Of a DNA stretch of 64,000 bases, positions 17,623 through 48,774 are shown piece by piece. The stretch comes from Candidatus Gastranaerophilales bacterium (GTDB taxonomy: Bacteria; Cyanobacteriota; Vampirovibrionia; Gastranaerophilales; Gastranaerophilaceae), in the NCBI GenBank assembly GCA_947624325.1, contig CANQJT010000001.1, forward strand, positions 248,001 through 312,000, written 5' to 3'. Every line of letters begins with the position of its first letter. Position 1 is the first letter of the stretch. The translations under genes and the position numbers were made by a program. The notes beneath the pieces were generated by a model. The model was not told where the DNA came from. It worked only from the letters and a program-made list of their open reading frames with translations, and did not search any database.

Positions 17623-18270
17623 ATGAAAAAAAGCGGATTTACTCTATCAGAAGTGTTAATAACACTGGTAATAATAGGAGTGATATCAACAATAGGGATA
17701 TCAATAATATCTGTAAATGCCGAATTCAAAAGAACAAGGGCTGCAATTGCAAAATCATTCAGTGTGCTTACACAGGCAAATACAAATATAAAAAGAGATT
17801 TAGGTTTATATCCTGCAGAATGCTGCGCATTAAACGATTCAAAGTGTTTTGGTGAGCTTTTTACACAACGAATGAATGTTATGAAAAGCAAATTATACAC
17901 ACCGAATAGTGAAAAAAAAGATGATTGCTGGGGGAATGAAACAGAAGGTCTCTCAAATATGAGCGAAAAACACTATTGTGTAATAGCTGCAGACGGTATA
18001 ATATATGATTTTGATTATGAATATTCGGAAGACACTTTTAATTCAAATCCGGATGATCGCATTTACGGATATATACATATTGATATTAACGGTCCCAAAA
18101 AACCAAATCGATGGGGAAAGGACAGATTTACATTTTTTGTTGTTTATAGCAAAATTTATCCTTATGATCCAAGAATGACTTCATCTCATGCATGCAGTTA
18201 TGGAAAAATAAATGACTTTTTTAATAACAGTTCTTGCGTACAAGAGTATCTGCAAAATAATGATAATTAA
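17623..18270 (+). CDS. Prepilin-like protein with N-methylation motif
   Basis: 215 aa. The N-terminus MKKSGFTLSEVLITLVIIGV is a textbook type IV pilin/pseudopilin leader: cleavage after Gly5, Phe at +1, Glu at +5 and a hydrophobic helix. The remaining domain has eight or more cysteines in the secreted part (CCALNDSKC and later) and an NGPKKPNRWGKDRF stretch that recurs in the second prepilin-like protein at 47639. Exported via the type IV pilus/type II machinery; no assembly genes are nearby. Role (minor pilin, pseudopilin or adhesin) unknown. Confidence 0.88.
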   Translation: MKKSGFTLSEVLITLVIIGVISTIGISIISVNAEFKRTRAAIAKSFSVLTQANTNIKRDLGLYPAECCALNDSKCFGELFTQRMNVMKSKLYTPNSEKKDDCWGNETEGLSNMSEKHYCVIAADGIIYDFDYEYSEDTFNSNPDDRIYGYIHIDINGPKKPNRWGKDRFTFFVVYSKIYPYDPRMTSSHACSYGKINDFFNNSSCVQEYLQNNDN

Positions 18271-18300: not shown

Positions 18301-18320
18301 AAAAGTAATATATTACTTTT
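18301..18320. promoter_or_regulatory. Perfect 20-bp palindrome before radical SAM operon
   Basis: AAAAGTAATATATTACTTTT, self-complementary without a loop, 50 bp upstream of the first radical SAM start. A weak terminator for the prepilin gene or an operator for the downstream operon are both possible; no clear promoter hexamers were placed. Confidence 0.4.
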
Positions 18321-18369
18321 ACTTTTAAAAATGCTCGTGATAAAATTTTTATAGTGAGAGGTATAAAAG

Positions 18370-19347
18370 TTGAAATATAAGAGCTGTCACTGGATTGAAT
18401 CAGGAATAAATTTTGATATAGACTCGTATAAAGTATGCTGTCTTTATAGTGCAAAAGGCGGCGGAAATACTATAGTTCAGGATAATTATAAAGGTGAACC
18501 TGTCGATTGGAATAAGTTGTTTGAATTTAAAGAAATGATGCGTGAAATGCATAAACGTGGCGAAACTTATCCGAAATGCGAAGGCTGTATTTACTTAGTT
18601 GAACAGGATTGGCCCGATGAACATAATAAAATCAATATGATTAATCTTGATTATTGGACAAAATGTAATTCAAGATGTTCATATTGCCATACAATGCTTG
18701 ATAAAGAAAGATATAATAAATTTAAAAATTATAATTTTTTACCTATTTTAAAAGATATGATTAGAAGAGATATCTTAAGACCAAACGGACACGTTAGTTT
18801 TGGCGGAGGCGAGGTAACACTTTTAAAAGAGTTTGATACACTGCTTCATATGTTTATGGATGCAGGTTTTCCGTTGACAAGAGTGCATTCTTCCTGCATC
18901 AAATACTCAAAAGCCGTTGAAAGAGGATTAAAAGAAGGTTTAGTTGATTTAATTGTATCTGTTGATTCAGGTTCAAAAGAAATGCACAAAAAAATTAAAC
19001 AGGTCAATTCTTATAATAAAGTTTGGAATAATTTAAAAAGATATGCTTCCCATCAAAAAGATCCGTATGCAGTTAAATCCAAATACATTGTTATTCCCGG
19101 TGTAAATGACAATAAAGAAGAATTAGTTCTTTGGTTAAAGAAATCAAAAGAATGCGGAATAAATTGCGTATATCACGAAATTGAGTCCAAATGGTTTTAT
19201 GCAAGAAGAGACAATGTTCCTGATGAAATTATTGATTTGTTTAATTACACAAAGGAAAAAGCCGAGGAAATGGGTTTAAAATATGTTTTGTATGAAAGAG
19301 CTGAACATATGATGGAATACAAACATGAGAAAGAGGTAAGTGTATAA
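18370..19347 (+). CDS. Radical SAM protein, paralogue 1 of 3
   Basis: 325 aa, starting at TTG 18370 behind GAGAGG. The SAM-cluster motif is CNSRCSYC (Cys 99, 103, 106), followed by the GGGE motif (FGGGEVTLL) that binds SAM. Unusually, an extra set of cysteines precedes the barrel (C6, C23/C24, C70, C73; CHW, KVCCLY, KCEGC), which could bind an auxiliary iron-sulfur cluster as SPASM domains do at the other end. Conserved with the next two genes: SCHWI, KGGG, VDW and the WxxCN block. Substrate unknown. Coupled to the next gene by TAATG. Confidence 0.88.
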   Translation: MKYKSCHWIESGINFDIDSYKVCCLYSAKGGGNTIVQDNYKGEPVDWNKLFEFKEMMREMHKRGETYPKCEGCIYLVEQDWPDEHNKINMINLDYWTKCNSRCSYCHTMLDKERYNKFKNYNFLPILKDMIRRDILRPNGHVSFGGGEVTLLKEFDTLLHMFMDAGFPLTRVHSSCIKYSKAVERGLKEGLVDLIVSVDSGSKEMHKKIKQVNSYNKVWNNLKRYASHQKDPYAVKSKYIVIPGVNDNKEELVLWLKKSKECGINCVYHEIESKWFYARRDNVPDEIIDLFNYTKEKAEEMGLKYVLYERAEHMMEYKHEKEVSV

Positions 19348-20330
19348 TGAGGGAATACACAAGCTGTCATTGGATTCAACATGGACTTAGCTTTGAAAAT
19401 GACCATATAGAAATGTGTTGTCTTTGCTGTCATAAAGGCGGCGGAAGAGTGTATATAAAAGAAAATTATAACGGTAAAGGTGTAAACTGGGACGATATAT
19501 TTAAATTAAAACAAAAATTTATTGAAGATAATCAAAACGGAATTATAGACCCCAGATGTGAAGGATGCTTTAATCTTGTTCATAAAGGCTGGGATGATGA
19601 TGAAAAATATATAAATTACATTCATTTTAATCATTGGACACACTGTAATTGCAATTGCATTTACTGCTATACAAAATATGATAAAGTTAATTATAATAAA
19701 AGACCGCACTACAAAGCACTTCCGATGGTTAAGGAATTATTTAAAAAGAAATTATTCAAACCTGACGGTGAAATTACTTTTGCAGGCGGTGAACCGACAA
19801 TATTAGATGAGTTTGAGGATATTATAAACTTCTTATTAAAAAATGAAGTTAAAAGAATTACAGTACATTCATCCGGAATAAAATATTCAAAAGCAATTGA
19901 AGCAGGTATAAAAGCGCAAAAACTCAATGTATGTTTATCTGCCGATGCCGGCTCAAGAGATACATTTTATGCCGCAAAAAAAGTAGATAAATTTGATAAA
20001 TTCTGGCAGAATGTTGAAAAATATGCAAATGCACAGCCTGATGATAATAAAACACTTGTTGAAACAAAATTTATTATTATTCCCGAAATAAATGACAACA
20101 AAGAAGAAATTGAAAAATGGTTCAGCCTAAATATGGCCTGCGGTGTAAAATCTATTGTTGTGGATATTGAAAATGAATTTTGTATGGCATTAAGAAAAGA
20201 GAATAAAGAACGGCCTCAATACCTTGTTGATTTATGTAAATACATTGTACAAAGGGCAAAGGAGCTTGATTTTAATTTGATTGATTATAATAATTTCAGA
20301 TATTTAACAACAGAATATAATTTATTATAG
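19347..20330 (+). CDS. Radical SAM protein, paralogue 2 of 3
   Basis: 327 aa, clearly paralogous to the preceding protein along its whole length: SCHWIQHGLSF, MCCLCCHKGGG, GVNWDD, CEGCFNLVHKGW, then CNCNCIYC for the SAM cluster and FAGGEPTIL for the GGE motif. The N-terminal cysteine set is kept and enlarged (CCLCC). Start ATG overlaps the preceding stop. Same operon, substrate unknown. Confidence 0.88.
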   Translation: MREYTSCHWIQHGLSFENDHIEMCCLCCHKGGGRVYIKENYNGKGVNWDDIFKLKQKFIEDNQNGIIDPRCEGCFNLVHKGWDDDEKYINYIHFNHWTHCNCNCIYCYTKYDKVNYNKRPHYKALPMVKELFKKKLFKPDGEITFAGGEPTILDEFEDIINFLLKNEVKRITVHSSGIKYSKAIEAGIKAQKLNVCLSADAGSRDTFYAAKKVDKFDKFWQNVEKYANAQPDDNKTLVETKFIIIPEINDNKEEIEKWFSLNMACGVKSIVVDIENEFCMALRKENKERPQYLVDLCKYIVQRAKELDFNLIDYNNFRYLTTEYNLL

Positions 20331-20338
20331 GAGCATAT

Positions 20339-21358
20339 ATGGAAGAAGGCTTTGAAAGCTGTTATTATATAGAGCACGGAATGGTTTTAGACCATTGCAA
20401 CAGAATAAGAGTGTGCAATAATTTTAATCCCAGACACGGCGGAAGACCTGTAATATATGAAAATTACCACGGTGAAAAAATCGACTGGGATGATTTTTTT
20501 AAACGGAAATGGGAGCTCAGAAAAATTTTCAGGGAAAATAAAAGTCCTGAATTATGTGTTGACTGCGTTAATAAATCCTTTAAAAATTGGGATGACGACA
20601 ATTATATAGATTATTTATTGTTAACTCCTTGGGTTCCTTGCAATTCAAATTGTATATACTGCAGCGCCCCAAGAGATAAAGATGTGCTTGACAATACAAA
20701 AGTATATAAAGTTCTTCCTTTGATAAAAGATATGATAAAAAACAATATTTTAAAAAAGGATGGCATTATTGATTTTGCAGGTGGTGAGCCTACTATTTAC
20801 AGAGAATTTGAAGCACTTCTAAGTGAATTTATAAAAAATGATTTTAAAAAAATTATTCTTCACACTAATGCCATTAAAAAAAGCCGTTCTGTTATAAAAG
20901 GAATTAAAAAAGGTGTCATAAGGGTTCTTGTTTCTATTGATGCAGGTTCAAAGCAAGTACATGAAAAAGTAAAACAAGTTAAATCTTATGATAAAGTATG
21001 GAAAAATTTAGCAGAATATGCAAAGCACCAACCGGAAGGCTCTGACCATGTTAAAGCAAAATATATAATTGTTCCAGGGCTGAATGATTGTGAAGAAGAA
21101 ATTAATTTATGGCTTGAAAAATGTAAATCAATAAATATTCATTCTGTTGTATTAAATCTTGATTTTAATTGGATTATGGATAATGTCGATACAGATTTAA
21201 TGCCGTTATACAATCTAATGAAATATACACAAAATAGAGCCTTTGAGCTTGGTATGAACTGCGAACTTTACGGACAGATTTTCCAGGTTAAATGTGAAGT
21301 TGAAAAAAATAGAGAAGAAAATATAGCAGGTTTTTTTGATGAAAATAGCAATTTATGA
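20339..21358 (+). CDS. Radical SAM protein, paralogue 3 of 3
   Basis: 339 aa, third paralogue. SAM-cluster motif CNSNCIYC and FAGGEPTIYREFE are intact. The N-terminal cysteine region is the most divergent (SCYYIEHG, RVCNNFNPRHGGRP, CVDC), lacking the CC pair of the other two, so it may have changed function. AGGAG ribosome-binding site. Its 3' end overlaps the dehydrogenase start by 20 nt. Confidence 0.87.
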   Translation: MEEGFESCYYIEHGMVLDHCNRIRVCNNFNPRHGGRPVIYENYHGEKIDWDDFFKRKWELRKIFRENKSPELCVDCVNKSFKNWDDDNYIDYLLLTPWVPCNSNCIYCSAPRDKDVLDNTKVYKVLPLIKDMIKNNILKKDGIIDFAGGEPTIYREFEALLSEFIKNDFKKIILHTNAIKKSRSVIKGIKKGVIRVLVSIDAGSKQVHEKVKQVKSYDKVWKNLAEYAKHQPEGSDHVKAKYIIVPGLNDCEEEINLWLEKCKSINIHSVVLNLDFNWIMDNVDTDLMPLYNLMKYTQNRAFELGMNCELYGQIFQVKCEVEKNREENIAGFFDENSNL

Positions 21359-22319
21359 GAAAAGAACATACGAAAATAATATAATTGAAGAATTTAAAAG
21401 AAGAAATGACATTGAAATAGTTGAAACTGATGAAATTCTTAATGACAGCACATTACATTTATGTAAGGATGCTGATGCTGTCACGACTTTGGGATTTAGC
21501 AATTTAGATGCAAAACTGCTTGATAAAATAAAAGAATATGGCGTTAAATACATATCAACAAGAACGATAGGCTATAATCATTATGATGTAAAATATGCAA
21601 AGAAAATAGGTTTAAAAGTAGGCAACGTCAGTTATTCGCCAAACGGAGTCGCTGATTTTACTGTTATGCTTATGCTTGTTGCACTAAGAAAATATAAACC
21701 GGCTATGTGGAGGCAAAATGTAAATGATTATACACTAAACGGCTTAATGGGCAGAGAATTAAGGAATATGACGGTTGGTGTAATCGGTACGGGTAGAATA
21801 GGATATACCGTTATAAAAAATCTCTCGGGTTTTGGCTGCAAAATAATTGCATATGATAAAATTAAAAATGAAAAAGTTAAAGATTATGCCGAATATGTTG
21901 CATTTGATGAACTTCTTAAAAACTCTGACATTATTACAATTCATGTTCCTCTAACTGAGGAAAATAAAGAATTAATAAATAAATGCACAATAAATATGAT
22001 GAAAGACGGTGTTGTATTAATAAATACGGCAAGGAGTGAATTAACCTGCATAAAAGATTTAATTGATGCTGTTGAATCAGAAAAATTAGGCGCTTTGGCA
22101 ATGGATGTATTTGCAAATGAAGATGAAATATATCATCATCATTTTTCAACAGACATTATAAAAAACAGAGATATGGCATATTTAAGACAATTCCCGAATG
22201 TTATTCTTACCCAGCATATGGCATTTTTTACTGATTCTGCAGTGGAAGAGATGATACGAAACAGCTTGAACAGTTTAGTTGATTTTTATAAAACAGGGAC
22301 AAGTAAATATGAATTATAA
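21339..22319 (+). CDS. D-2-hydroxyacid dehydrogenase (D-lactate dehydrogenase/VanH-like)
   Basis: 326 aa from ATG 21339 (a TTG lies one codon earlier). Rossmann motif GVIGTGRIGYTVIKNL near 150-165; catalytic Arg in NTARSELT, Glu in the DVFANEDEIYHHH loop and His in LTQHMAFFTDSAVEEM, the layout of NAD-dependent D-lactate/2-ketoacid reductases. STRTIGYNHYDVKYAKKIGLKVGNVSYSPNGVADF is typical of the LdhA/VanH branch and is read in sections. Last gene of the three-radical-SAM operon. Substrate could be a small 2-ketoacid or something made by that pathway. Confidence 0.9.
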   Translation: MKIAIYEKRTYENNIIEEFKRRNDIEIVETDEILNDSTLHLCKDADAVTTLGFSNLDAKLLDKIKEYGVKYISTRTIGYNHYDVKYAKKIGLKVGNVSYSPNGVADFTVMLMLVALRKYKPAMWRQNVNDYTLNGLMGRELRNMTVGVIGTGRIGYTVIKNLSGFGCKIIAYDKIKNEKVKDYAEYVAFDELLKNSDIITIHVPLTEENKELINKCTINMMKDGVVLINTARSELTCIKDLIDAVESEKLGALAMDVFANEDEIYHHHFSTDIIKNRDMAYLRQFPNVILTQHMAFFTDSAVEEMIRNSLNSLVDFYKTGTSKYEL

Positions 22320-22320
22320 A

Positions 22321-22346
22321 AAAAGGAGGATTTAATCCTCCTTTTT
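22321..22346. terminator. Bidirectional terminator
   Basis: AAAAGGAGGA-TTTAA-TCCTCCTTTT between the convergent dehydrogenase and Bax inhibitor genes; symmetrical with A/T runs on both sides. Confidence 0.85.
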
Positions 22347-48746: not shown

Positions 48747-48774
48747 TACTTTTTCTTTTATAAAAGAAAAAGTA
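48747..48774. promoter_or_regulatory. 28-bp perfect palindrome abutting an AAA_14 promoter
   Basis: TACTTTTTCTTTTA followed by its exact reverse complement, with no spacer. It ends one base before the -35 of the next promoter, so it could be an operator, or a cruciform/terminator hairpin. Confidence 0.6.

Follow-up and report, generated by a model that had tools for sequence, protein, structure and literature searches.

Radical SAM enzymes carry out chemistry that few other enzymes manage. Among the described systems closest to the locus studied here, the twitch domain has one cysteine on either side of a β-hairpin and a further two behind the helix that follows, an order also found in BtrN (2-deoxy-scyllo-inosamine dehydrogenase, of the twitch subclass), with one auxiliary cluster (PMC6231123). 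SPASM enzymes, such as SuiB, SkfB and anSME, have seven auxiliary cysteines and two clusters, located C-terminally, whereas in Tes (GDGT-MAS, PDB 7tol) auxiliary clusters flank the barrel, with three [4Fe-4S] clusters and a rubredoxin-type iron in the protein (PMC9433317). Two-electron oxidation is the reaction type associated with fully ligated auxiliary clusters of low potential, as in BtrN, PqqE and SuiB (PMC9012708).

The locus lies in a window of 64,000 nucleotides, the whole stretch of DNA that was analysed, from a Gastranaerophilales genome. It holds three coupled radical SAM genes, R1, R2 and R3, all on the plus strand and in the order of their names, followed by a dehydrogenase gene, with these features:

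18301-18320, no strand: perfect palindrome of 20 bp, AAAAGTAATATATTACTTTT, upstream of R1; exact, a candidate regulatory site in this genome only
18318-18346, plus strand: promoter-like match TTTACT-17-TAAAAT with TG before the second hexamer, 9/12 matches, overlapping the edge of the palindrome
18370-19347, plus strand: R1, radical SAM protein of 325 aa that starts with TTG; cysteine domain at the N-terminus, then the barrel
18370-18624, plus strand: twitch-like N-terminal domain of R1, residues 1-85, carrying C6, C23, C70 and C73
18664-18687, plus strand: CxxxCxxC of R1 for the SAM-binding cluster (C99, C103, C106), kept in 238-239 of 239 homologues
19347-20330, plus strand: R2, radical SAM paralogue, 327 aa; its orthologue adjoins R1 in three genera
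20339-21358, plus strand: R3, radical SAM paralogue of 339 aa, where other genomes usually have 331 aa; beside R1-R2 in its own genus only
21339-22319, plus strand: D-isomer 2-hydroxyacid dehydrogenase, 326 aa, ATG at 21339
22320-22346, no strand: bidirectional terminator-like hairpin, shared with a convergent Bax-inhibitor-1-like gene

R1 and R2 overlap by 1 nt and R2 and R3 are separated by 8 nt; the TTG start of R1 is found at the corresponding position in 26 of 28 orthologues. All three proteins carry CxxxCxxC and belong to the radical SAM superfamily, with PF04055 matches (4.8e-16, 3.5e-15 and 1.3e-19 for R1, R2 and R3) of 57.0-71.4 bits against a curated cut-off of 29.5, and the GGE-type motif reads GGGE in R1 (residues 145-148) and AGGEP in R2 and R3. 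The initial annotation, which had described three coupled paralogues with these two motifs and a dehydrogenase overlapping the last of them by 20 nt, is confirmed in all these positions; in relatives the spacing between R3 and the dehydrogenase is usually 0 or +1 nt, and the overlap is not conserved. The genes have the GC content of the window, and all four are under purifying selection, which is strong for the radical SAM genes (dN/dS of 0.025-0.052 against two close relatives).

The palindrome had also been put forward as the control site. The window has just one other perfect palindrome of 18 bp or more, and when the 150 bp upstream were put through 2000 mononucleotide shuffles, a single shuffle reached 20 bp; the palindrome is rarer here than chance would give. 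Across 27 orthologous upstream regions, however, the longest palindrome is 12 bp, and a conserved operator was rejected, which leaves the proposal standing for this genome only. The overall number of promoter-like matches is not above chance.

The four N-terminal cysteines are real markers of the family. C6, C23, C70 and C73 are invariant among R1, R2 and R3, and of the 239 homologues that were aligned, 236 keep all four, as do 14 of 14 distant relatives; C24, which the initial annotation had listed as an alternative to C23, is not invariant. In a set of 66 diverse family members the invariant positions are the N-terminal cysteines, C99, C103, Y105, C106, G147, D199 and K210. An AF2 model of R1 (pLDDT 95.4) places C6 before a hairpin (residues 12-21), C23 after it, and C70xxC73 after a helix (residues 47-62), with the four cysteines arranged around hairpin and helix as in the twitch definition (PMC6231123). 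The cysteines lie in a domain which, predicted alone, folds separately (mean pLDDT 92.5). They occupy residues 6-73, ahead of a barrel that begins at residue 88, and not the position C-terminal of the barrel that SPASM and twitch domains have. No match to PF13186 (SPASM) was found in R1-R3, and when a profile of this domain alone was run against the sequences in the PDB, it gave chance matches only. The twitch assignment rests on the number and order of the cysteines and on secondary structure, because the hhalign comparison with SPASM domains is weak (probability 3.6%, with the cysteines in register) and Foldseek gave no significant match of the isolated domain in the PDB, a result that says nothing on fold novelty. 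Both the AF2 model and the order of the cysteines are consistent with a twitch cluster site of the BtrN type at the N-terminus.

This placement, which had been noted as differing from that in SPASM enzymes, is indeed before the barrel, but it is not unprecedented, as an NCBI subfamily model of twitch-containing radical SAM proteins, N_Twi_rSAM (NF033640), exists. R1-R3 share the radical SAM barrel with that model, but score 21.3-28.9 bits against its cut-off of 170, align with no part of it before position 97, and have a different spacing, C-x16-C-x46-CxxC. Three proteins of this genome match it from its N-terminus on, also below the cut-off; at their N-terminus they have the pattern C...CC...GN...C, which agrees well with SPASM when the two are compared. 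The family profile matches BtrN (4m7t/4m7s, 1e-5) through the barrel only, and although the four cysteines have the same order and one auxiliary cluster would be expected in both, the twitch domain follows the barrel in BtrN and precedes it here. SPASM enzymes resemble R1 in barrel fold (Z 12.7-16.3) and in having auxiliary cysteines, but not in their number or location. The barrel also matches the sugar-acting enzymes BlsE (Z 14.5) and DesII (Z 14.1), and the peptide-modifying SuiB and SkfB score equally or higher. Membership of the viperin, Tes and N_Twi families was rejected, all scores being below the cut-offs.

R1-R3 belong to a large and mostly dispersed family. This genome has 16 copies, R1-R3 among them, mostly solitary; relatives have up to 42 per genome, expanded copy numbers are seen in 3 of 41 genera, and a clade nested within this genus has no copy at all. 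In the genus 36 genomes carry the family; the non-carriers are G008, G017, G026, G033 and G034. More than 20 genomes share one locus with the order R1-R2-R3, and R1 adjoins R2 in three genera. R1-R2 is an ancestral pair, to which R3 appears to have been added in this genus. The three genes fall in different parts of the family tree and did not arise by recent tandem duplication. A search of a literature library returned nothing on the family, nor on expanded radical SAM families of Gastranaerophilales or Melainabacteria. This is an undescribed, uncharacterised radical SAM family with a putative auxiliary cluster domain before the barrel.

No recurring partner gene was seen for the dispersed copies. 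A MATE transporter gene is coupled to an operon resembling the trio in g136, and in L070 it is fused to a member of the family, with ORFs of 761-766 aa in G019, G020 and G035; it is not an exclusive partner, because it is a core gene that four of the five non-carrier genomes also have, the fifth (G008) being an incomplete assembly. A conserved protein of 448 aa without a Pfam match adjoins the OG0 paralogue. Distant, single-copy relatives occur in glycan loci: two are fused to GT2 glycosyltransferases (L099, L106), four have GT2 neighbours (L100, L103, L105, L109) and two are fused to a hexapeptide transferase (L098, L108).

In the mechanism that we propose, C99, C103 and C106 would hold the SAM-cleaving [4Fe-4S] cluster, and reductive cleavage of SAM would give a 5′-deoxyadenosyl radical that removes a hydrogen from a substrate C-H bond. 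The N-terminal domain would bind a second [4Fe-4S] cluster through C6, C23, C70 and C73 and take up the second electron, and the net reaction would therefore be a two-electron oxidation (a dehydrogenation, or the formation of a bond that such an oxidation drives), as it is in BtrN and in SPASM enzymes whose auxiliary clusters are fully ligated. Sugars or glycans would be the most likely substrate class, because the distant relatives are fused or adjacent to GT2, or fused to a hexapeptide transferase; sugars are possibly the substrate here, and the assignment is carried over from those relatives, since the 16 copies of this genome all lack a glycosyltransferase as a direct neighbour. That R1-R3 are C-H-oxidising radical enzymes with an N-terminal cluster domain, possibly acting on sugars or glycans, is a reading for which we see about as much reason to believe as to doubt. 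R1-R2 would then be an old co-expressed pair, R3 a later addition in the genus and the dehydrogenase a resident neighbour.

The initial annotation had instead seen a dedicated pathway, with three enzymes acting in successive or branched steps on one substrate class and the dehydrogenase last. Tight coupling, the order R1-R2-R3-dehydrogenase in most genomes that have the trio, and purifying selection on all four genes agree with it. The neighbourhood comparison upholds the R1-R2-R3 order but not the fourth gene: five trio loci (L016, L018, L024, L029, L081) have no remnant of the dehydrogenase, and in G017 it occupies the same slot without any radical SAM gene. R1-R2 occur without R3 and without the dehydrogenase in g134 and with the MATE gene in g136, and no dehydrogenase accompanies the remaining 13 family members of this genome. 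The dedicated pathway was rejected because all four combinations occur (radical SAM genes with or without the dehydrogenase, the dehydrogenase alone, neither). The origin of the three copies in different parts of the tree and the scatter of most homologues speak against successive steps; single, unlinked homologues had been named as the pattern that would count against the pathway, and most copies in this genome are of that kind, with the trio order kept at one locus. The dehydrogenase itself is a family member by PF00389 (87.7 bits) and PF02826 (161.7 bits), both over cut-off, domains that it shares with the VanH and LdhA-type D-lactate dehydrogenases. VanH (NF000492) is its best NCBIfam match, but at 305.2 bits, below the cut-off of 540, and there is no resistance gene context. 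The catalytic Arg (NTAR) and His (TQH) are present and the Glu position is Ala, so the full Arg-Glu-His set is not found in this copy; orthologues have E, D or Q there, a variation which also argues against the four-gene pathway. The dehydrogenase is probably an independent neighbour, co-transcribed by position and outside the radical chemistry, and the four-gene reading is improbable.

Other substrates have to be weighed against sugars. Maturases of peptides (RiPPs) or proteins, acting in trans on precursors encoded elsewhere, would agree with SuiB, SkfB, Mmp10 and anSME being among the best barrel matches, with the fully ligated auxiliary clusters common in such enzymes, and with the 448-aa protein mentioned above. 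Against them, no small-ORF family within 1 kb recurs with different paralogues and no adjoining precursor gene was found, 92% of the genes having less than 150 bp free on both sides; no RiPP family model is over its cut-off; and the R1 model begins at the cysteine domain, which therefore leaves no room for an N-terminal recognition domain. We regard this as unlikely, though less so than the four-gene pathway. A lipid-modifying activity related in mechanism to Tes is suggested in that Tes is the PDB sequence which the family profile matches best (7tol, 3e-11, extending into the CxxC region), matches in fold (Z 12.9) and gives a second, weak match, in which its C-terminal region pairs with the segment from C6 to C23. 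That second match by itself is at chance level (i-Evalue 75), the tetraether model NF045702 gives 24.8-43.4 bits against a cut-off of 450, and there is neither a hydrophobic-pocket domain nor a rubredoxin domain, so we judge this activity very unlikely. Viperin models (NF038283, PADLOC pVip) are the best NCBIfam/PADLOC matches of R1 and R2, yet the scores of 41.3-45.0 bits against 180 are a quarter of the cut-off and the matches are confined to the SAM-binding half of the barrel; a cysteine domain at the N-terminus is absent from viperins, and neither kinase nor defence genes were seen nearby, which makes nucleotide-modifying antiviral enzymes the least credible of these readings. Finally, the copies might belong to a dispersed, largely selfish family that spreads by duplication into core-gene operons with no common pathway. 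The many copies are indeed dispersed, at very short distances from core genes to which they are unrelated (leuS, recJ, MATE), with no recurring partner and one clade lacking the family. But dN/dS is very low, orthologous positions are stable across species and genera, the catalytic motifs are kept in nearly all copies, no mobile signature was seen and plasmid and viral collections held no relatives, so this too is very improbable.

The proposed C-H-oxidising enzymes with a putative N-terminal cluster domain take the place of a tempting but wrong pathway of three radical enzymes and a VanH-like dehydrogenase, and the position of the auxiliary domain raises the question of electron acceptance under a changed domain order. 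To our knowledge, a genome of about 2 Mb with up to about 40 genes of one family in one fixed architecture is unusual. More tentatively, the tens of diverged, vertically inherited enzymes may all serve one shared process, such as the modification of a surface glycan or of a family of small molecules, which would explain the joint loss of the whole set in one clade, although we consider this rather doubtful. The family-negative clade, nested among carriers and lacking the family completely, is a natural knockout that may point toward the substrate. If the shared process is real, these gut bacteria, with genomes of about 2 Mb, would possess, for example, a combinatorial repertoire of radical modifications.

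Three neighbouring radical SAM genes (R1, R2 and R3, together the trio) are followed by a D-2-hydroxyacid dehydrogenase gene in a Gastranaerophilales-type genome of 1.98 Mb. Their coupling, the overlap with the dehydrogenase and a palindrome upstream, all noted in the initial annotation, were confirmed in the sequence.

Layout of the trio operon
18370-19347, + strand: R1, radical SAM gene, consecutive with R2 and R3
19347-20330, + strand: R2, radical SAM gene, consecutive with R1 and R3
20339-21358, + strand: R3, radical SAM gene, consecutive with R1 and R2
21339-22319: D-2-hydroxyacid dehydrogenase, 20 nt overlap with R3
22320-22346: terminator-like hairpin, closing the unit

The start codon of R1 is TTG, as in 26 orthologues (GTG in 2). 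PF04055 is the sole Pfam domain detected in R1-R3, and no NCBIfam model reached its cut-off against them. The dN/dS values of 0.025-0.052, relative to the two closest relatives, show that all three are functional genes, as judged from codon substitutions. In most species, the stretch separating rplI from the trio contains a conserved protein of ~440 aa with no clear Pfam match (c3; e.g. L011:3786-5135, L157:6010-7338), which is retained in species where the radical SAM genes are missing; its position in the window is occupied by a type IV pilin-like gene (17623-18270).

The additional cysteine set proposed to precede the barrel is borne out, except for C24, which is conserved in only 80% and is therefore excluded as the fourth ligand. 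C6, C23, C70 and C73, in most members spaced C-x16/17-C-x46-C-x2-C, are invariant across R1-R3 and 66 diverse homologues, and are kept in 236 of 239 aligned homologues, the exceptions being one protein truncated by a contig end and two degenerate copies. Every one of the 16 paralogues found in this genome retains them too, as do 14/14 distant relatives from other genera. The confident AF2 model of R1 (mean pLDDT 95.4, pTM 0.91) places C6, a hairpin (12-21), C23, a strand (35-38), a helix (47-62), C70xxC73 and a strand (77-80) before the barrel, which starts at residue 88. This is the published element order of twitch domains (PMC6231123), and R1 resembles BtrN, whose cluster is held by four cysteines (PMC6231123; PMC9012708), both in cysteine/hairpin/helix order and in its four putative ligands. 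The N-terminal domain is predicted to fold in isolation (pLDDT 92.5); it had no significant match in the PDB, and its profile similarity to SPASM domains is weak, though with the cysteines in register. On the predicted structure, members of the family are putative twitch-type radical SAM enzymes whose auxiliary domain precedes the barrel, an assignment that does not extend to direct homology with SPASM domains. The modelled barrel matches SuiB, PFL activating enzyme, SkfB, Mmp10, BlsE, DesII, viperin, MoaA and Tes at Z 13-16, which identifies the fold, not the function. Three more radical SAM proteins of this genome, L110:5758-6744 (-), L111:5742-6809 (+) and L112:5580-6605 (+), carry an N-terminal SPASM-like domain of another type (hhalign probability 97% to SPASM; N_Twi_rSAM match below its cut-off).

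The dehydrogenase had been taken as the closing step of a four-gene pathway. This reading fails in its main point, since dehydrogenase and trio occur apart: five trio loci hold no trace of the dehydrogenase, and in G017, of the same genus, it stands alone at the trio locus (76% identity to its relative in a carrier). We conclude from this distribution that the dehydrogenase is probably an independent neighbour. It is VanH/LdhA-type by Pfam and NCBIfam, yet scores under the VanH cut-off, and its usual catalytic Glu (E, D or Q in orthologues) is Ala, so that its activity may be altered; a second dehydrogenase elsewhere in the genome, 42% identical, retains the Glu. The palindrome (18301-18320) exists as described and would rarely arise by chance, but a conserved role as control site is unsupported, since 27 orthologous upstream regions contain palindromes of at most 12 bp; the core of the one at 18301-18320 was found in no other fetched locus except overlapping copies of the same locus. 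A longer perfect palindrome of 28 bp (TACTTTTTCTTTTATAAAAGAAAAAGTA) lies at 48747-48774, upstream of an ATPase-like gene.

Nor is a dedicated three-step pathway supported, most of the 16 family copies being single genes wedged between unrelated core genes (e.g. leuS, recJ, a MATE gene); the grouped ones are the trio and a four-copy cluster near mnmG. The order R1-R2-R3 is kept at the rplI locus in >20 genomes, and the positions of the three in separate parts of the family tree show that they did not arise by recent tandem duplication. R1 orthologues of two other genera, g134 and g136, are each directly followed by an R2 relative (in g136 as OG9-R1-R2'-MATE), whereas R3 was observed next to R1-R2 in its own genus only; from this gene order, the R1-R2 pair is the ancestral unit.

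The finding is the radical SAM family itself, rather than the four-gene pathway. Within the genus, 36 of the 41 genomes carry it and five have no copy; carriers show between 5 and 42 matches at E <= 1e-25, counts to which fragmented assemblies may add split genes, but G019, an assembly of 30 contigs that is 99% complete, reaches the maximum of 42 by this E-value count. Across 383 genomes of the taxonomic family, 3/41 genera carry it (the own genus g1, g134 with 10 copies in one genome, g136 with 18-26 in two); in the rest of the order and phylum, some genomes have only one or two relatives, which are distant and mostly multi-domain. The expansion is lineage-specific and unusual. A single in-frame TAA or TAG is present in about twenty listed matches (e.g. 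G025:C5:34036-35013), which may be decayed copies or matches extending past the C-terminal stop.

Beside the four-copy cluster, a predicted surface protein (L090:13466-17056, -) contains a very long PSIE repeat array, which also occurs in several related species. The paralogue of group OG0 near mnmG always adjoins a conserved 448-aa protein without a Pfam match (L090:12020-13366, +, and 28 orthologous loci), whose Cys/His pattern is reminiscent of cysteine peptidases. Numerous proteins encoded by these genomes (e.g. L090:13466-17056, L091, L102:1673-3304, L110:6812-7900) have in common a short N-terminal motif with FxG at its end (e.g. VNFKGHK, SFKGK), found also in genera without the expansion; it resembles a signal for sorting or processing.

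In the proposed mechanism, the C99/C103/C106 cluster would cleave SAM, a hydrogen would be abstracted from the substrate, and the N-terminal cluster would accept the electron, giving a net two-electron oxidation, as performed by enzymes with fully ligated auxiliary clusters (PMC9012708). Distant relatives give the sole hint at the substrate through their genetic context (GT2-radical SAM fusions, GT2 neighbours, hexapeptide-transferase fusions and TPP enzymes in glycan loci), which makes sugars or glycans the first, if tentative, candidates; peptides rank next. None of the 16 copies lies beside a glycosyltransferase, and no precursor peptides were found near family genes. Fusions to a GT2 or hexapeptide transferase domain in other genera (L099:5265-7382, L106:5595-7676, L098:4568-6466 and L108:4402-6264, all -) retain the N-terminal cysteine set. 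One member forms a single ORF of 758 aa with a MatE transporter (L070:6103-8379, +; PF04055 and PF01554), and further such ORFs of 761-766 aa occur in G019, G020 and G035; MATE is a core gene, occurring also in genomes without the family.

A tree of six flanking proteins, which covered the non-carriers other than G008, places the four family-less genomes in one clade (support 0.978, with moderate backbone support) nested among carriers. The trio locus of G033 is cleanly empty (rplI, c3, enolase, Bax-inhibitor-like). The simplest reading is that the entire family was lost on one branch, and such a common loss suggests a shared function of the copies. The non-carrier genomes are a natural comparison set for the family.
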